Notes under the pieces: generated by a model
Database searches by the model: none
The model's input: only the letters and a program-made list of their open reading frames with translations
What the model was told of the DNA's origin: nothing
Program-made: the position numbers and the translations under genes
Source: a virus
Direction: 5' to 3' (one strand)
DNA: 35,064 bases
Virus record (IMG/VR): IMGVR_UViG_3300032334_000266
Span: 1 to 35,064 of that record
Shown here: positions 2,827 to 34,000 of the stretch, piece after piece
How the letters are laid out: each line of letters opens with the position of its first letter
Numbering within the stretch: the stretch's first letter is position 1

Positions 2827-3702
2827 ATGAAGCCCGAAACATATCAACTATTTGCTCAACTGTGTGAATCAATAGCTCTAGAAGCCAGTTCCAGTATGGG
2901 TTTAATCAAAAGCCTACCAGGTGGTCCACAGGTTGTGCAGTTCCTGCACAAAAGCAAAGGACTATCACACGATCAAGAATACAGTCAAACTCCAAAGATT
3001 GCTTGGAGTGAACTTAAAAACATGAGTAGAGGTGGGTGGGTGCTGTTGAAGTATCCTAAAGGTGTTGGCGCTATCAAACAAAATAATGGCAGCTATGAAG
3101 CCGTTGCCAGTACTGGCGGCGAACCTGTGACATTTAGAAATGATCGCGGCGGCAACATCTTAGACTTCCTTAAAGGCGAACTAGGCGGTAATCCTAAGTC
3201 TATGTTTATTGGCCGTGATACTGGTGCTGTTGGTCAAACTAGACGCAGTCGTCAAGAACGAGACTCCGAGCTTACCCGTGCTACAGAACTTAGCCCAGAA
3301 TCTATTATGAAAAAGTTTAAGCCATTATGGGCTAAAGCTATCAACGCAGCCATAGCCGATATCAAAGGCATGATTGCTACTCAGATTAAAAACGATGCTT
3401 TTGACAAAGCAGAAAAGAAACTCAAACAGGTCACAGCGTTACGTAATGGTCTAGAAGATCTAGATTCAGGCAGCACTGATACTCCTAGTTTTGTTAAAAA
3501 TGCACTGAATCAAGCATTGGCACTAACTGCTGGTCATTACTATCCAGATCAAGCAGGCGAGTTGACTAGAAGCAGTTATGGTAGTTATGGTTCTAGAGCA
3601 GACGAAGCTATTAAATTAGTTTTAAAAGATATCTCCGGCGGAGATCAAAACAAACTAGGCACAGTATTGGCATTCTTTAAGAGGAGTTTGATTTCAGGAT
3701 GA
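2827..3702 (+). CDS. Putative virion/head-cargo protein, 291 aa
   Basis: The N-terminus (MKPETYQLFAQLCE|S) contains an L-x-E|S site that fits the T4-type prohead protease consensus, as in the neighbouring genes. Residues 15-110 include a Gly-rich folded region (SRGGWVLLKYPKGVGAI). Residues 140-220 are helical and charged with a likely coiled-coil (KAEKKLKQVTALRNGLEDL). No enzymatic motif is recognised. The stop overlaps the next start (ATGA), so the two genes are translationally coupled and probably act in the same structure. Function unknown. Confidence 0.65.
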   Translation: MKPETYQLFAQLCESIALEASSSMGLIKSLPGGPQVVQFLHKSKGLSHDQEYSQTPKIAWSELKNMSRGGWVLLKYPKGVGAIKQNNGSYEAVASTGGEPVTFRNDRGGNILDFLKGELGGNPKSMFIGRDTGAVGQTRRSRQERDSELTRATELSPESIMKKFKPLWAKAINAAIADIKGMIATQIKNDAFDKAEKKLKQVTALRNGLEDLDSGSTDTPSFVKNALNQALALTAGHYYPDQAGELTRSSYGSYGSRADEAIKLVLKDISGGDQNKLGTVLAFFKRSLISG

Positions 3703-4838
3703 AGCTACTACAACTACTCCCAGAAGCAAACTATTTTAATAAGATTGCTAAAGATCCGCAAAAGCTCAAACAGTTGGCTATTGCTATCAAACACGACGGC
3801 ACGTTCTCTAAGAATGCTGTTGCCAAACTAGGGCCTAAACCCACAGACGAAGACTTGTCTAAAGCATGGAGTGATGTCCTAGACGACACACTACGCAGAA
3901 CAAGATACGGTGACATATCAGCAGACGGCAAGTTTGACGATTGGTTATTCCGTTTATACATTACAGGCGCTGCTGACTACGAAGATATCAACGGCGAAGG
4001 CGGAGATGCACTAGGTGCTTGGAAAGCACTAAGCATTCGTAACAAACTAAGACCAGAACACCAAGACTTCAATAAGTTTAAATCTATTAGACAGATACAG
4101 CGTATCATTCAAGATAGATCATATCGTGATGAGCTGGCTCGTATTGCTAATGCTGCTGAGATTGAAGGACACAAGAGAGATAAGAAAGAAGCAACACTTA
4201 TCGACGATGATCGTTTCCTAGTAGTTATACCTTTCAACTACGGTTCTTGCTATACATTCAACAATGCACACGGATACAATGCCAGTTTCTGTACAGGTTC
4301 AAGTTCAGGACATCGTTGGTTCAATCGTTATGCAGACGAAGGTCCAATCGTATCTATCCTTGATAAAGCCAACTCAGATGACGTTAATGGCAAATGGCAG
4401 ATGCATGCCCCAACTAATCAAATGAACAACGGCAATCAAACTACTTCTTATTCTAGAGGTGACGAAAAGTTTGCTGAACTGTTCCCAGGACTAATGAAAC
4501 GCATTGTAGCAGCTATCTCAGCTAAAGGTGAAGAAATTAATCAAGGCAGTCAAGACATCATGAAAGGTGGATACGACATTGCTAAAGCTGTCGCTGACAT
4601 CAAGAAACACTTTCCATTATCTTATGCTTCTGAAGAGCCAAAGAAAGACGATGAAGCAGCAGCAGATGGCCCAGGAACTTATCTAGTAACTCATACAGCC
4701 ACAGGAAGAACAGCTCGTATTGAAGGTGAAAGCAAGCAAGACGTACAAGACAAACTGTTAGCTCGCCACCCTAATGTAAGTTTAGATGATTTTACATTTG
4801 AACTTCAGCAAGAACAACAGGAAAACGTACTGTACTAA
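3699..4838 (+). CDS. Putative head-cargo protein with CYT-FCTG-type domain, 379 aa
   Basis: Begins MKLLQLLPE|A, another match to the capsid-targeting/prohead-protease pattern. The N-terminal half is helical (residues 15-170). The middle (about 175-245) carries a distinctive motif, SCYTFNNAHGYNASFCTGSS followed by GHRWFNRYADEGPIVSIL, which resembles the WCT...YF..Y...GPLY pattern I associate with a family of phage proteins of unknown function. The C-terminal 60 residues form a small appended domain (GTYLVTHTATGRTARIEG). No catalytic assignment is made. The conserved Cys pair and aromatic residues could be an active or metal site. Overlaps the upstream gene by 4 bases. Confidence 0.68.
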   Translation: MKLLQLLPEANYFNKIAKDPQKLKQLAIAIKHDGTFSKNAVAKLGPKPTDEDLSKAWSDVLDDTLRRTRYGDISADGKFDDWLFRLYITGAADYEDINGEGGDALGAWKALSIRNKLRPEHQDFNKFKSIRQIQRIIQDRSYRDELARIANAAEIEGHKRDKKEATLIDDDRFLVVIPFNYGSCYTFNNAHGYNASFCTGSSSGHRWFNRYADEGPIVSILDKANSDDVNGKWQMHAPTNQMNNGNQTTSYSRGDEKFAELFPGLMKRIVAAISAKGEEINQGSQDIMKGGYDIAKAVADIKKHFPLSYASEEPKKDDEAAADGPGTYLVTHTATGRTARIEGESKQDVQDKLLARHPNVSLDDFTFELQQEQQENVLY

Positions 4839-4949: not shown

Positions 4950-5654
4950 ATGAATACAATAATAGCAACGTTAGTGATGACGCATATCACAATAGTATGC
5001 GTTACACTATACCTGCACAGAGGACAAGCCCATCGCGGCATAGTCTTTAATCCCCTACTAGAACATTTTATGCGCTTTTGGCTGTGGCTAACCACAGGTA
5101 TGGTAACCCGTCAATGGGTAGCTATACATCGTAAACATCACAGATTCAGCGATGTTGAAGGTGATCCACACAGCCCTCACGTATATGGAATATGGCGTGT
5201 ATTTTTTAAAGGTGCTGGATTGTATCATCAAGCAAGTAAAGACCCAGTTATGATTGCCACTTACGGCCAAGGTACACCGCAAGATTGGGTTGAACGCAAT
5301 GTATACTCCGCACACAGTCGCTCAGGTATTCTTTTAATGTTGGTCATAGACCTATTGCTCTTTGGACCGTGGGGACTGCTAGTGTGGGGTATTCAAATGA
5401 TCTGGATCCCATTATGGGCAGCAGGATTCATTAACGGAATAGGACATTGGTATGGTTACAAGAACGGAACTACTCGTGATAGCAGTCGCAATATTATTCC
5501 TTGGGGCATTTTGGTGGGCGGCGAAGAACTTCATAACAACCATCATCTTGATCCAGCAAGCGTTAAACTAAGCCGTCGTTGGTTTGAATTTGATATAGGA
5601 TGGATGTGGCTAAGTCTATTTAGGTTAGTAAGACTAGCCAAACTGCGTTCATAA
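4950..5654 (+). CDS. Membrane fatty acid (acyl-lipid/acyl-CoA) desaturase
   Basis: All three histidine boxes of the membrane desaturase family are intact: H23-RGQA-H28 (HX4H), H60-RK-H63-H64 (HX2HH) and H195-NN-H198-H199 (HX2HH), plus the extra ligand H166 in NGIGHW. These hold the di-iron centre that inserts a double bond into fatty acyl chains using O2. Hydrophobic helices flank the boxes (about 1-20, 42-58, 126-160). At 234 aa it is shorter than host enzymes (about 300 aa) but keeps the full catalytic core, so it is a compact version rather than a broken gene. It stands alone between a late promoter candidate and a strong terminator. A likely role is changing host membrane fluidity during infection; this is inference. 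Confidence 0.88.
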   Translation: MNTIIATLVMTHITIVCVTLYLHRGQAHRGIVFNPLLEHFMRFWLWLTTGMVTRQWVAIHRKHHRFSDVEGDPHSPHVYGIWRVFFKGAGLYHQASKDPVMIATYGQGTPQDWVERNVYSAHSRSGILLMLVIDLLLFGPWGLLVWGIQMIWIPLWAAGFINGIGHWYGYKNGTTRDSSRNIIPWGILVGGEELHNNHHLDPASVKLSRRWFEFDIGWMWLSLFRLVRLAKLRS

Positions 5655-22462: not shown

Positions 22463-22597
22463 ATGGAAGATGGAATCAAATCAAAGGGTGAAAAGAAGTC
22501 AGCATTAGATCATTTTGAACGATGGTTTGATATTGCATTGAGATTTGGATGGGTGTTATTCATTTACGTAGTGGTAACTGGTAACTACATCCGATAA
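22463..22597 (+). CDS. Small single-pass membrane protein, 44 aa
   Basis: A short frame (MEDGIKSKGEKKSALDHFER, then WFDIALRFGWVLFIYVVVTG) with a basic amphipathic start and one transmembrane segment at about residues 22-40. It lies directly upstream of the tmRNA acceptor piece and may share its transcript. No SD is visible before the ATG. Real coding status is likely from the clear membrane topology, but function is unknown. Confidence 0.55.
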   Translation: MEDGIKSKGEKKSALDHFERWFDIALRFGWVLFIYVVVTGNYIR

Positions 22598-22610
22598 AGA
22601 ATTGTTGTAA

Positions 22611-22665
22611 TCCCTTCAAAGCGAAGGCATGTTGGACGGCGGTTCGATTCCGCCCACCTCCACCA
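22611..22665 (+). other. tmRNA acceptor piece
   Basis: Holds hairpin CCTTC-AAAGC-GAAGG (22613-22627), the P2 strand (22628-22634), the T arm GGCGG-TTCGATT-CCGCC (22638-22654), the acceptor strand CACCTCC and an encoded ACCA (22662-22665). It is unusually short, as in other two-piece tmRNAs; the true 5' end is a guess. Confidence 0.85.
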
Positions 22666-22760
22666 AAAGCATACTTGAATCCGTAAAAAGATCAGGTTTG
22701 GTATCCCAGGAGCTCTTTGGCATAGCCATAACTCTTAATAAACCAAAGTATGTTTCTGAT

Positions 22761-22976
22761 GGGGGTGACCAGGTTTCGACAGCGTGAGATAGTAGAGACG
22801 GCAACACGAGAGGCGATGGACGTAATCCAAGCAAAAAACGTAAATGCAAACGCAGATACATTCGACTTCAGCGCAATGAGCTTCACTGGTAACTCTGTTA
22901 CTGGCAAAAGCAAAGTTGCTCTAGCTGCCTAAGAAACAGCAGGTCCGGGGTTGGTAACCTTGTAACCCAATAACCA
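22761..22976 (+). other. tmRNA coding piece with tag reading frame
   Basis: Starts with GGGGGTG, then the D-loop-like GGTTTCGACA. The tag frame probably resumes at GCA 22846 (other in-frame GCA at 22831 and 22852) and ends at TAA 22930-22932, giving a tag of about 28 residues (ANADTFDFSAMS... GKSKVALAA). After the stop, GGGTT and AACCC can pair. The 95 bases between the CCA and this piece (22666-22760) would be removed by tRNA-type processing (RNase P at 22761). Confidence 0.82.
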
Positions 22977-22980
22977 AAAA

Positions 22981-23001
22981 GCGGCAGAAATGCCGCTTTT
23001 T
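22981..23001 (+). terminator. Terminator of the tmRNA transcript
   Basis: GCGGCA-GAAA-TGCCGC hairpin (6 bp, GAAA loop) followed by five T and preceded by five A, so it could work in both directions. Confidence 0.9.
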
Positions 23002-23002
23002 C

Positions 23003-23032
23003 TTGACTTTTTCTCAGTGTTTGCTATATACT
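23003..23032 (+). promoter_or_regulatory. Sigma70-type promoter of the porin gene
   Basis: TTGACT, 18-bp spacer, TATACT (an alternative TATATA gives a 16-bp spacer). The leader contains the shared motif TCACACACAAAGGAG (23057-23071) that acts as the SD. Confidence 0.65.
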
Positions 23033-23992: not shown

Positions 23993-24532
23993 ATGAAAAC
24001 AGTTGGACATAAATTAGAAAAATTCGCAGTCACTGGAGTTAAGCCAGGACAACCAGAAGATGCTTTCTTTGAAATTACAGATGAAAGTTTTGCTGGCAAG
24101 TGGAAAGTAATCGTTTACTATCCAAAGGACTTTACATTCGTTTGTCCTACAGAAATCGTAGCCTACGATAAACTAGCAGGCGACTTTGCTGACCGTGATG
24201 CAGTATTGCTAACAGGTAGCACAGACAATGAGTTCTGTAAAGTAGCATGGCAGAAGGCACACAGTGATTTGCAAAAGATCACTCACACTCAGTTTGCTGA
24301 TACACAGCGTGGTGAGTTGAGCTTGATTGAACAGTTGGGCGTGTTCTATGCGCCAGCAGGTGCCGCACTTCGTGCCACATTCATCGTTGATCCAGACAAT
24401 GTTATCCAACACGTGACTGTAAACAACTTGAACGTTGGTCGTAGCCCAGAAGAAACACTTCGTGTATTGGATGCGCTACAAACTGGCGAACTATGTGCAT
24501 GTAACCGTACAGTAGGCGGAGAGACACTATAA
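23993..24532 (+). CDS. ahpC: Alkyl hydroperoxide reductase AhpC (2-Cys peroxiredoxin)
   Basis: Reduces H2O2, organic peroxides and peroxynitrite. The peroxidatic Cys is C51 in DFTFVCPTE; the resolving region has C168 and C170 in GELCACNR. This C-terminal CAC arrangement and the sequence RATFIVDPDNVIQHVTVNN match the AhpD-dependent AhpC of mycobacteria and some proteobacteria rather than the AhpF-dependent type. At 179 aa it has normal length (Mycobacterium AhpC 195 aa). The stop overlaps the ahpD start (TAATG), so the enzyme is made with its own reductant. A phage copy probably protects the infected cell from oxidative stress. Confidence 0.94.
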   Translation: MKTVGHKLEKFAVTGVKPGQPEDAFFEITDESFAGKWKVIVYYPKDFTFVCPTEIVAYDKLAGDFADRDAVLLTGSTDNEFCKVAWQKAHSDLQKITHTQFADTQRGELSLIEQLGVFYAPAGAALRATFIVDPDNVIQHVTVNNLNVGRSPEETLRVLDALQTGELCACNRTVGGETL

Positions 24533-25038
24533 TGGCATTCAACGACGCTATCAAAGAAGCGTTGCCAGAATACGCAAAGGACACCAAGTTAAACTTGGAC
24601 GCTGTCCTTTTGCGTAGTACATTGGATGCTGATGTAGCTATGGGTTGTGCTGTAGCCGCATTAGCCGCAACTGGTAACGGTAAAGTATTGGCTGTATTGT
24701 TAGCAGACGCTCCTGTTCACGCAGATGCCGCAATGACAGCCGCAAGTATTATGGCACAGAACAATGTATGGTATCCGTATGTTGAAATGGCTGATGATCC
24801 TGCCCTTAAAGGATTGCCAGCACAGTTACGCATGAACGCAATCGCAAGTCATGGTGGAACTACCAAGTCAAACTTTGAAGCATTCAGTTTGGCCGCGAGC
24901 ATTGTGGGCAAGTGTCACTTCTGCGTTAAGGCGCACTACGAAACACTCAAGACAGAAGGCTATACTGTAGAACAACTTCGTGACATTGGACGTATTGCCT
25001 CAGTCATGAATTCTGTTGCTAAGGTTTTAAACAGTTAA
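24532..25038 (+). CDS. ahpD: Alkylhydroperoxidase AhpD (AhpC-reducing, CxxC)
   Basis: 168 aa, all helical, with the AhpD catalytic motif C128-H-F-C131-V-K-A-H135 and the family N-terminus LPEYAKDTKLNLDAVL. AhpD passes electrons from lipoamide/dihydrolipoamide dehydrogenase-type donors to AhpC. Coupling to ahpC by a TAATG overlap makes the pair a two-gene antioxidant unit, as in actinobacteria and some proteobacteria. A Prx5-type gene follows after 20 bases. Confidence 0.93.
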   Translation: MAFNDAIKEALPEYAKDTKLNLDAVLLRSTLDADVAMGCAVAALAATGNGKVLAVLLADAPVHADAAMTAASIMAQNNVWYPYVEMADDPALKGLPAQLRMNAIASHGGTTKSNFEAFSLAASIVGKCHFCVKAHYETLKTEGYTVEQLRDIGRIASVMNSVAKVLNS

Positions 25039-25058
25039 ATATTGCCTAAGGAGAAGCT

Positions 25059-25592
25059 ATGGCTATTAAAAGTGTACCGTATATGAGATTTGCCTTTAGA
25101 CAAGGCGATGAAAAACCAGAAGGTGGTGGATGCCCGATCGGAGGAGATTGGACTTATCTTGGAACCAAAGAACTATTTGGCGATAAGAAGGTTTTGGTTA
25201 TCGGTCTGCCGGGCGCATTTACTCCCACTTGTTCATCTGAACAGATTCCGGAATACGAAGCTCGATATGATGAATTTAAAGCATTGGGATTTGATGCCAT
25301 TTATTGTGTATCAGTTAACGATCCGTTTGTTATGAATCTGTGGGCAGACACTATGCAGGTTAAAAACATCAAGATGTTGCCAGATGGTAATGCAGAGTTT
25401 ACTAGACTAATCGGAATGTTAGTTGAAAAGCGTAATCAAGGCATGGGGTATCGTAGCCACAGATATGTCGCTGTAATCAACGATATGATCATTGAACAGA
25501 TCTTTGAAGAAGACGGTCGTGAAGACAACTTCGGCGGAGACCCTTATGATCTCACCACAGTTGATACTGTATTAGAAGAACTATCTAAGTAG
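25059..25592 (+). CDS. Prx5-type peroxiredoxin (glutathione/glutaredoxin-dependent)
   Basis: 177 aa with peroxidatic C58 in GLPGAFTPTCSSEQIPEYE and the FDAIYCVSVNDPFVM segment typical of the Prx5/AhpE-AhpC-TSA redoxin family. There is no fused glutaredoxin domain; the phage glutaredoxin at 19.9 kb could supply electrons. The SD AAGGAG precedes the ATG by 8 bases. It is the last gene of the ahpC-ahpD-prx operon, after which only a weak hairpin (CACTA/TAGTG near 25619-25636) is seen. Confidence 0.92.
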   Translation: MAIKSVPYMRFAFRQGDEKPEGGGCPIGGDWTYLGTKELFGDKKVLVIGLPGAFTPTCSSEQIPEYEARYDEFKALGFDAIYCVSVNDPFVMNLWADTMQVKNIKMLPDGNAEFTRLIGMLVEKRNQGMGYRSHRYVAVINDMIIEQIFEEDGREDNFGGDPYDLTTVDTVLEELSK

Positions 25593-25646
25593 TAACGCTA
25601 ACTCCATTTAATGATTTTCACTATGTGTTTAGTGGTGATTTCATAA

Positions 25647-25680
25647 TATAATAACGATACATACTAATGCAGTATGCATT
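25647..25680 (+). promoter_or_regulatory. Promoter and leader hairpin of pqqA
   Basis: TATAAT (25647-25652) as the -10, with no convincing -35. The leader then holds the inverted repeat AATGCA-GTA-TGCATT (25666-25680), followed by AAAGGAG as the SD. Confidence 0.45.
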
Positions 25681-25698
25681 TTATAAAGGAGTACTAAT

Positions 25699-25770
25699 AT
25701 GTGGACTACACCATCAGCGACAGAAATGCGTTATGGATTTGAAATCACAATGTACGTGATGAATCGATAA
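25699..25770 (+). CDS. pqqA: PqqA, pyrroloquinoline quinone precursor peptide
   Basis: A 23-residue peptide, exactly the usual PqqA length. It starts MWTTP and keeps W2, P5, R11, G13, E15, T17, Y19, N22 and R23. E15 and Y19 are the Glu and Tyr that PqqE cross-links to form PQQ, with the required three residues between them (E-I-T-M-Y). The gene has a strong SD (AAAGGAG, 7 bases before ATG), its own -10 and a strong terminator right after the stop. No pqqB-E gene is in the window, so maturation would depend on the host or on genes elsewhere in the phage. PQQ serves methanol and other quinoprotein dehydrogenases. It is too short for ordinary ORF calling. Confidence 0.85.
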   Translation: MWTTPSATEMRYGFEITMYVMNR

Positions 25771-25777
25771 TAAAGAC

Positions 25778-25800
25778 AGCCCACTTCGGTGGGCTTTCTC
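25778..25800 (+). terminator. Terminator of pqqA
   Basis: AGCCCAC-TTCG-GTGGGCT hairpin (7 bp, UUCG loop) followed by TTTCTC, directly upstream of the next promoter. Confidence 0.9.
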
Positions 25801-25829
25801 TTGACAAAATTTTCAAACGATGTTATAGT
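25801..25829 (+). promoter_or_regulatory. Sigma70 promoter of the SGNH hydrolase gene
   Basis: Perfect TTGACA, 17-bp spacer, TATAGT, starting at the end of the pqqA terminator. Confidence 0.8.
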
Positions 25830-26307: not shown

Positions 26308-26844
26308 ATGTGTACAACTGATCAATGGCGTATAGCACAAAGACCTTTAGCAGAGTATGCTTACAGTCTAAAAGAAAAGTATAATCAAACTTTTGGCATC
26401 AGTTATGACGCCTTTATGAATCTATACGAGCTAGGAGAAGTGCAACTAAGCAGTGTGTTTGAAAATCTATTAGTAGCCACAAGGAATCATCATGGTCGTC
26501 TTACACGCAAGGTAGCAGGTGATCGATATGATTTTGTCCGTGTAGATAGCCTAGGGCGTGAAACTCCATTGGGTGATATGAAAACTGGGGTGCTTCAAAA
26601 AGATGATTCAAAACGCAGATATGTCATAGCCGGTGTAGAGAACAAGATCGGCAAGATCTATATCATAGGATGGAACTGGATTACTAAAAAACCCAATTTC
26701 TTCTGCATACCCCCTAACAGCAACGGAGGACATCCTAAATCAGGTTATAAGATCATGGTGCATCCCATAACAGGCGAACGTACTGGCGGCTGGTATAACG
26801 ATAACTGTGCCCATGATACTTGGGAAAGTATGTGTGTCGCTTGA
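26308..26844 (+). CDS. Hypothetical protein, 178 aa, possible restriction-nuclease-like fold
   Basis: I use ATG 26308; the frame from 26269 overlaps the -10 box. The region DRYDFVRVDSLGRETPLGDM followed by KTGVL, then KIYIIGWNW, has a D...G-D-x-K layout that loosely resembles PD-(D/E)XK restriction nucleases, but the match is weak and unproven. Late Cys and His residues (NDNCAHDTWESMC) could bind metal. No family is recognised. It is a single-gene unit between two promoters. Confidence 0.65.
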   Translation: MCTTDQWRIAQRPLAEYAYSLKEKYNQTFGISYDAFMNLYELGEVQLSSVFENLLVATRNHHGRLTRKVAGDRYDFVRVDSLGRETPLGDMKTGVLQKDDSKRRYVIAGVENKIGKIYIIGWNWITKKPNFFCIPPNSNGGHPKSGYKIMVHPITGERTGGWYNDNCAHDTWESMCVA

Positions 26845-31893: not shown

Positions 31894-32916
31894 ATGAGAA
31901 TCGAAGATGAAGTGAAACTAGACTTCAGAGATGTATTGATTCGTCCTAAACGTAGTACACTAAGCAGTCGACGAGAAGTCGATCTTACCAGAAACTACGA
32001 GTTCAAACACAGTAAACAAAAATGGTATGGCATTCCTATCATGGCCTCTAACATGGATGGTGTAGGTACATTCGATATGGCTGCTGCCTTACAACAGGAT
32101 CAGTTGTTTACATGTCTTGTGAAAACATATAACAGTAACATCAATCAGTGGATAGACGCCGTCGCATTAGATCCAGAAAACTTTGCTGTCAGCAGTGGTA
32201 CCAGTGATGCTGACTTTGATCGTCTTAATGTTGTATTAACTGGTGTAGGAAGAATCAAGTTTATTTGTATTGACGTAGCCAATGGCTACAGTGAGAAGTT
32301 CGGTGACTTTGTTGCTAGGGTGCGACAGGCATGGCCGACTCACACTATTATTGCAGGTAATGTTGTTACCGCAGACATGACACAGGAGTTAATCTTACGT
32401 GGCGCAGATATTGTTAAAGTGGGCATTGGCCCTGGTAGTGTTTGTACTACTCGTATCCAAACTGGTGTGGGCTACCCACAGCTTAGTGCTATCATTGAAT
32501 GCGCCGATGCCGCTCACGGTCTTGGTGGACACATTGTGGCTGACGGCGGATGCACTTGTCCTGGGGACGTTGCTAAGGCTTTCGGGGCAGGCGCTGATTT
32601 CGTGATGCTTGGCGGCATGTTCGCTGGTCACGATGAAGGTGGTGGTGATGTAGCAGATGGATTTATTACATTCTACGGTATGAGCAGTGACACAGCTATG
32701 AACAAGCACAGTGGCGGTGTTGCTGAGTATCGCAGTTCAGAAGGAAGAACAGTCAGTGTTCCCTATAAGGGAGCAGTTAGAAATACTGTTTTAGATTTGC
32801 TAGGTGGTCTACGCTCTACCTGCACGTATGTGGGTGCTCCAACCCTAAAGCAACTTAGTAAGTGTACAACGTTTGTTAAAGTCAATAGACAGATCAACGA
32901 CGTATTCCTTAGATAA
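31894..32916 (+). CDS. guaC: GMP reductase
   Basis: Converts GMP to IMP with NADPH. The 340-aa sequence follows E. coli GuaC closely: [20 protein letters not shown] at the start, the Cys loop [11 protein letters not shown] with active-site C184, [20 protein letters not shown], and [17 protein letters not shown]. There is no CBS domain, so it is GMP reductase rather than IMP dehydrogenase. It follows bS21 after 9 bases with AAAGGTC as a weak SD. In a phage it would rebalance purine pools together with the ribonucleotide reductase; such a copy is an unusual auxiliary metabolic gene. Confidence 0.94.
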
Positions 32917-32959: not shown

Positions 32960-34000
32960 ATGGACTTCATCACAAACGTCCTGTTAAAGGACATATCATA
33001 CCTATGGATGATATTCTTCATTATGATCACTGCTGGACTAGCTAAAGAGTACGCTCTTTTTGCCCCAGCATTTGCCTATGTAAGAAACACATTCAGAAGT
33101 AATAAGTTTGTAGTTGTTCTCCTAAGTGCGATTGGCGGAATATTGCCAATCGAAGGTCGAGTCACTGTGTCAGCAGGTTTGCTGGATACAGTAGCACCTA
33201 AGGAAGGTCACGGCCGTGAGAAGTTAGGCATTGTTGATTACTTGAGTACACACCACTATTATTTGTGGTCGCCACTTGAGAAAACAGTAATCTTACCTAT
33301 CGCGGCATTTGGTTTAACTTATGGTGCGTGGCTTGGCTTGATTGCACCTTTGTTGGTTGTTAGTTTCGTATTCATTGCTTGGTACATTTGGAGTCAAGTA
33401 CATGATGAAGAAATTTCAATCACACCGGGAAACTTTAAACTGTCATCAGTTTTACGCAATGTTGTACCAATGTTCGTAGCCATTGGCTTGTACATTTATA
33501 ACAGTGCGTGGATGATTGTCTGTTTTGGATTCCTAACCTTGTACTATATCATCATTAGTCAACAATGGAACATTAAGAAATTATTGGGCTATGTTCGCTG
33601 GGATGTGTTAATATGGGTTGGTGCAGTTATCGCTTTAGGTAACTATATGAAAACTTATGATGCCGAATGGCAAACTATGTTAAAGACCAGTGTGCTTGAT
33701 CCGCATACTTTCGTTGGCATGGTAGCTATTTCAGCTATTGGTTTTGCTGCTAGCTTCCTAATGGGTAGTTCAGGTAAGTTTATTGCCATTGCCGTAATCA
33801 TGTCTCAAGTCTTTGGACAAGAGTACTTTTTATGGTTCTTTGCATTAGACTTCGCTGGCTATCTCATTAGCCCTACACATAAGTGTGTTATGATTGGTAA
33901 CCGATACTTCGGCACACCAATCGGCACTTATTATAAGGCACTAGGAGGTTGGGGAGCGTTATTACTCGCAACCGCAGGTACTATAACGTTCTTGATTTAA
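32960..34000 (+). CDS. Ion-transporter superfamily membrane protein (DUF401-like)
   Basis: 346 aa with about nine to ten hydrophobic segments. Two signatures support the IT superfamily/DUF401: the re-entrant-loop-like GGILPIEGRVTVSAGLLDTV (about residues 67-86) and the late LISPTHKCVMIGNRYFGTPI. Such proteins are secondary transporters for organic anions or of unknown substrate. It has a strong SD (AAAGGAG). A ten-helix transporter is very rare in a phage; it could import nutrients or alter membrane energetics. Family assignment is by motif recall and should be taken as probable. Confidence 0.7.
   Translation: MDFITNVLLKDISYLWMIFFIMITAGLAKEYALFAPAFAYVRNTFRSNKFVVVLLSAIGGILPIEGRVTVSAGLLDTVAPKEGHGREKLGIVDYLSTHHYYLWSPLEKTVILPIAAFGLTYGAWLGLIAPLLVVSFVFIAWYIWSQVHDEEISITPGNFKLSSVLRNVVPMFVAIGLYIYNSAWMIVCFGFLTLYYIIISQQWNIKKLLGYVRWDVLIWVGAVIALGNYMKTYDAEWQTMLKTSVLDPHTFVGMVAISAIGFAASFLMGSSGKFIAIAVIMSQVFGQEYFLWFFALDFAGYLISPTHKCVMIGNRYFGTPIGTYYKALGGWGALLLATAGTITFLI

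Follow-up and report, generated by a model that had tools for sequence, protein, structure and literature searches.

Viral pqqA, the gene for the peptide precursor of PQQ, is much commoner than has been described and usually goes unannotated. We consider it likely that methylophages carry this gene as a transcription unit of host type, operator and often terminator included, whose product would feed the PqqBCDE enzymes of the host during infection, a reading in which processing, regulation and benefit are steps that we infer. The window in which the gene was noticed is the whole of IMG/VR record IMGVR_UViG_3300032334_000266, a stretch of 35,064 nucleotides. By its predicted gene content (an exonuclease, a tail spike and ribonucleotide reductase subunits with an NrdB of T4 type) it is phage DNA, with an NrdB nearest to those of large Xanthomonas and Stenotrophomonas phages. 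The initial annotation knew of no described viral pqqA, in which it was wrong: a viral PqqA had already been published for the Lake Baikal population VP_266, a T4-like virus assigned to Methylophilaceae that carries it alongside methanol dehydrogenase (PMC7678222), and pqqA, pqqE and pqqD are listed among the viral genes of reservoir sediments (PMC13188868). The role proposed for VP_266, in methanol oxidation, is the one proposed here; VP_266 is, however, a single virus that encodes methanol dehydrogenase, whereas the viruses described below mostly do without that enzyme, include isolates and carry an apparently host-type operator. Within the literature searched, what is new is the presence of pqqA in isolated methylophages of several types, together with a shared putative PQQ operator.

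The pqqA unit of the window and its surroundings

The window frame is identified as PqqA on the strength of two curated models and its conservation: the peptide scores 35 bits against PF08042 (curated cut-off 21.1) and 34.3 bits against TIGR02107 (curated cut-off 20), and is the single PF08042 match in the whole 35,064-base record. The initial annotation had read a 23-codon frame of PqqA length and layout and had proposed such a profile search; the frame stands, as do E15 and Y19 where it had placed them, the Glu and Tyr that end up in PQQ, separated by three residues. In length, layout, this residue pair and its scores over both cut-offs the peptide is an ordinary member of its family, from which it differs in being phage-borne and in coming without PqqE in the viral records searched. 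A Shine-Dalgarno sequence, a −10 box, a leader hairpin and a terminator had also been claimed for the unit (Table 1). The Shine-Dalgarno sequence and the terminator were confirmed, the latter with a fold z of −4.3 and an independent listing by the terminator scan. The −10 box exists too, but it lies upstream of the stretch 25666-25800 to which the unit had been assigned, and it is absent from the output of the sigma-70 scan, which requires a −35. The hairpin held in part: folded as a single sequence it is no better than dinucleotide shuffles (z 0.08) and was dropped as an RNA element on that ground, and it is retained from comparison: of 45 viral leaders, the majority have a hairpin right after the −10 box, at the same place but with stems of differing sequence (mean z against mononucleotide shuffles −3.1).

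Table 1. Elements of the pqqA transcription unit in the window
Feature	Position	Strand	Basis
Dyad TAATGATTTTCACTAT, putative PQQ-regulon operator/activator site, common to host pqqA promoters	25609-25624	+	Motif search, host genome sites
−10 box TATAAT, 22 nt past the dyad, without a good −35 hexamer	25647-25652	+	Sequence
Leader hairpin CATACT-aatgc-AGTATG, presumed mRNA 5' end	25660-25676	+	Folding, comparison with relatives
Shine-Dalgarno AAAGGAG	25685-25691	+	Sequence; AGGAG kept in relatives
pqqA, 23 codons plus stop (72 nt, ATG start, tandem TAA stops), product MWTTPSATEMRYGFEITMYVMNR	25699-25770	+	PF08042 and TIGR02107 over cut-off, conservation, pN/pS
Intrinsic terminator AGCCCACTTCGGTGGGCT, then T-rich tail	25778-25803 (hairpin 25778-25795)	+	Folding, terminator scan

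Such a recurrent hairpin could plausibly stabilise the mRNA. At the other end of the unit, a terminator-like element within 90 nt past the stop follows 80 of 161 viral and 115 of 129 host pqqA genes, against 2-3 in shuffles. Four viral loci (L089, L097, L114, L143) have a longer structured leader before pqqA, CTCAAGGYAGAC...ACTCTCTRCTGA, with a stem adjoining the Shine-Dalgarno sequence; a search of these leaders against Rfam reported no known RNA family, and they could be regulatory RNAs.

Directly upstream of the unit (23993-25592) lie genes for AhpC, a CMD/AhpD-type protein and a redoxin, the first two of which reach about 89-97% identity in most relatives having them, above many other genes. 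The window also holds a permuted (two-piece) tmRNA of betaproteobacterial type (22558-23023), a fatty-acid desaturase (4950-5654), an IMPDH/GMP reductase (31894-32916) and a DUF401 membrane protein (32960-34000), and its protein at 3699-4835 found no match among known phages. The neighbouring protein at 26311-26841 was rejected as an anchor for relatives, having led to one locus (L282) whose aligned stretch is without pqqA.

Distribution and constraint of viral pqqA

A tblastn search of 50,697 phage records placed pqqA in nine isolated methylophage genomes (P19250A, Venkman, MEP301, MEP401, MEP402 and four Melnitz isolates; further methylophages listed in the taxonomy stand outside this count, as do MEP431-434, HIM624-A and EXVC038S) and in the assembled podovirus ctXG6705. 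Its place is unannotated in the Methylophilaceae phage P19250A and in Venkman, MEP301, MEP401 and MEP402, while in Melnitz and ctXG6705 an antisense 'hypothetical protein' is annotated over it; in Venkman and MEP301 the gene is oriented opposite to its neighbours. The default minimum gene length of Prodigal is 90 nt. An ORF of 72 nt is short enough for common gene finders to miss, and surveys of phage metabolic genes would therefore undercount pqqA. PQQ goes unmentioned in the publications that describe MEP301, MEP401/402 and Venkman, and is named in the Melnitz paper solely as a medium supplement. An Acinetobacter PqqA used as the query added no phages; its one other match, 'Acinetobacter phage MD-2021a' (L008, CAKLQF020000010.1), was discarded as a non-methylophage case, the contig being host chromosome with modABC, ent, ppk and pqqABCDE.

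Environmental viruses extend this range considerably. In IMG/VR scans whose totals are minimum counts from non-random samples, a pattern fixing W2, P5, G13, E15, T17 and Y19 returned at least 120 loci, each with an intact short PqqA frame, and a pattern leaving E15 and Y19 free likewise returned at least 120, both residues being present in 120 of the 120 matches listed; the union of the two scans holds at least 153 viral loci, all encoding a PqqA of 23-25 aa. The diversity of phage lineages was judged by annotated phage types, single-linkage gene clusters having merged nearly all of them at low thresholds. Eight viral contigs (L012, L021, L023, L029, L037, L045, L048, L107) carry other PqqA types and probably belong to phages of other PQQ-making bacteria.

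Across more than 150 viral contigs pqqA is constrained as a protein and is no chance frame, its codon variation being mostly synonymous. In 145 distinct viral genes pN/pS is 0.23 overall and 0.29 on the columns left free by the first scan, and R11 (for which six codons are used) and F14, neither of them fixed by that scan, are constant in all 145. The initial annotation had pointed to the E15 and Y19 codons of homologous phages as a check, and there both residues are kept through synonymous changes (GAA/GAG and TAT/TAC, respectively). Viral peptides are nevertheless more variable than those of hosts, whose pN/pS is 0.10. In two relatives (L301 and L306) the promoter region is intact and the pqqA behind it is deleted or truncated, and the gene is therefore dispensable.

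The genes for the enzymes, pqqB-E, do not travel with it. Their absence from the window means little alone, since the record is a 35 kb fragment of a phage whose remainder could encode pqqB-E; the wider search suggested at the outset, however, found none by tblastn in the 153 viral loci, and a profile search of 50 viral records, some of 72-356 kb, found PqqE over cut-off in none and PqqA in 49, one copy each, which fits the supply of precursor only. Among the pqqA-bearing records, 23 of 50 have a terminase large subunit and one of 50 a PQQ methanol dehydrogenase. The 72 kb record IMGVR_UViG_3300025120_009955 (L062) holds, besides pqqA, a PQQ-dependent methanol dehydrogenase at 34049-35731.

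Host pqqA genes and the upstream dyad

In bacterial genomes, a search with a motif resembling the viral PqqA returned 120 loci, almost all of them from entries labelled Methylophilaceae, Methylophilales or betaproteobacteria. Host genomes have 2-12 pqqA copies, and 21 of 130 copies lie within 3 kb of pqqB-E, an underestimate as the loci were at most 8 kb long; pqqB was seen in the host loci L313 and L324. For the window's own host we infer Methylophilales, from the pqqA type and the operator. The phage AhpC proved uninformative for host assignment, with identities of no more than 40% to Methylophilaceae homologues and 61% to a homologue from one further genome of the class, and the tmRNA gave short matches of 29-34 nt only. 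Methylophilaceae genomes are reported to combine a single pqqBCDE set with 3-12 copies of pqqA (PMC4109929), the strain of PMC9851590 having five, and PMC11317620, citing Ge 2015, gives PqqA availability as rate-determining in Methylovorus MP688. A viral gene for the precursor alone makes sense in light of the 2-12 host copies and of the rate-determining PqqA supply reported for one relative.

The dyad upstream of the window gene, a degenerate form of TCATGA-N3-TCATKAG, is present in one copy in the window with up to 3 mismatches allowed, and the upstream block is common to those relatives of the window that share neighbour genes. A 19-mer around the dyad, TTTAATGATTTTCACTATG, is unique in the window and has 11 exact IMG/VR matches, nine of them before an intact pqqA and two before the broken genes of L301 and L306. 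De novo motif searches, run separately on the upstream regions of 141 dereplicated viral and 113 host pqqA genes, converge on one element: TaATGATTTTC.tTAt in 89% of the viral regions (log-likelihood 725) and TCATGAaatTCaTTAG in 98% of the host regions (log-likelihood 871), shuffles giving about 53-55, with the viral regions related by descent, a kinship whose effect dereplication lessens and does not remove. Across 12 host genomes, exact matches to TCATGANNNTCATKAG number 20 distinct sites, against zero for a reversed-pattern control, and 17 of the 20 are at PQQ genes: 14 at pqqA (assigned by matching site coordinates to PqqA matches), two at pqqB and one before the gene for a TonB receptor that is truncated by the end of the locus and matches the model for the PQQ importer PqqU best, though under cut-off (4.5e-107). 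Of the other three, two precede genes for pentapeptide-repeat proteins, one of which weakly matches YHS, and the third falls within a coding region. A search of the available literature for a pqqA promoter motif in Methylophilaceae found none, and from its placement in these genomes we propose the dyad as a site that may control the PQQ genes of the family.

This operator-like motif keeps a fixed spacing to the promoter. In hosts the distance from the dyad to the start of the −10 box is 44 nt, in viruses 21-22 nt or, less often, 43-44 nt; a difference of some 22 bp amounts to two helical turns and so fits an activator on the same side of the helix, and a dyad-bound activator may thus occupy the same DNA face at both spacings. 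The orphan pqqA genes of Methylophilaceae (PMC4109929; PMC9851590) resemble the phage gene in standing alone, with the dyad upstream and a terminator downstream, and differ from that of window-type phages in this spacing. The viral dyad is also more degenerate, scoring at least 10 of 13 in 58 of 141 viral regions versus 92 of 113 host regions. On balance, we favour the view that several methylophage lineages keep the PQQ-regulon operator of the host before a stand-alone pqqA, which would place precursor supply from the phage genome under a host regulator, and that these 23-codon genes have been overlooked below the length limit of gene finders.

Proposed role and its alternatives

In the mechanism we propose, a T4-like Methylophilales phage would bring into the cell a self-contained unit composed of a host-type operator, −10 box, 5' hairpin, Shine-Dalgarno sequence, 23-codon PqqA and terminator. 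Host RNA polymerase would transcribe it, probably early in infection, with the host PQQ regulator on the dyad; host PqqD would bind the viral peptide, host PqqE would cross-link E15 to Y19, and host PqqB and PqqC would complete PQQ. The extra pqqA may thereby maintain the supply of cofactor to the PQQ-dependent methanol dehydrogenase as expression of host genes breaks down, since one PqqA is consumed per PQQ and hosts maintain several pqqA copies for one pqqBCDE set.

Other explanations would assign the unit a different function, or none. There is next to no chance that the ORF is a non-coding remnant amid conserved RNA or DNA: the leader hairpin and terminator do recur, but both models are matched over cut-off, and the reading is refuted by conservation at the codon level, where variation is mostly synonymous and E15 and Y19 are kept even when the scan does not impose them. 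Very improbable, too, is that the unit is kept for its DNA, with the operator titrating the host PQQ regulator and the peptide a passenger, as the conserved operator and the retention of promoter sequence beside a broken pqqA in L301 and L306 might suggest; purifying selection on the peptide and the small number of broken cases speak against it. Small phage proteins are often inhibitors of host enzymes, and the looser constraint on viral than on host peptides would suit a decoy that resembles native PqqA closely enough to tie up PqqD/PqqE or the peptidase and so block PQQ synthesis by the host. We regard this as improbable, however, since with an inhibitor one would expect E15 or Y19 to have disappeared from some lineages, whereas both are present throughout the matches in which they were left free, R11 and F14 are invariant, and one pqqA-bearing virus also encodes methanol dehydrogenase.

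A further alternative accepts that PqqA is real and feeds PQQ synthesis and takes the upstream motif to be an ordinary promoter element rather than a PQQ-specific operator. In the window type the dyad does occupy a position from which a −35 or UP-type element might work; the concentration of exact host sites at pqqA, pqqB or the PqqU-like receptor, with a reversed control of zero, nonetheless makes this unlikely, as does the rarity of the dyad at viral pqqA genes of other host types (present at the strictest score in 2 of 17, versus 73 of 161 viral pqqA genes).

The preferred reading, a host-type unit supplying precursor to host enzymes, places pqqA beside the auxiliary metabolic genes and morons of phages, such as cyanophage psbA, which are host-derived metabolic genes with their own promoter and terminator. 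The likeness extends to host origin, to the promoter and terminator and sometimes to an orientation opposite to the neighbours, as in Venkman and MEP301; the difference is that pqqA gives a peptide substrate that is consumed, not an enzyme. The question is directly testable, since isolated phage-host pairs exist, for example Venkman on OM43 strain H5P1. Methylophages would, on this reading, aid the central energy metabolism of their hosts by way of a consumed peptide and not of an enzyme.
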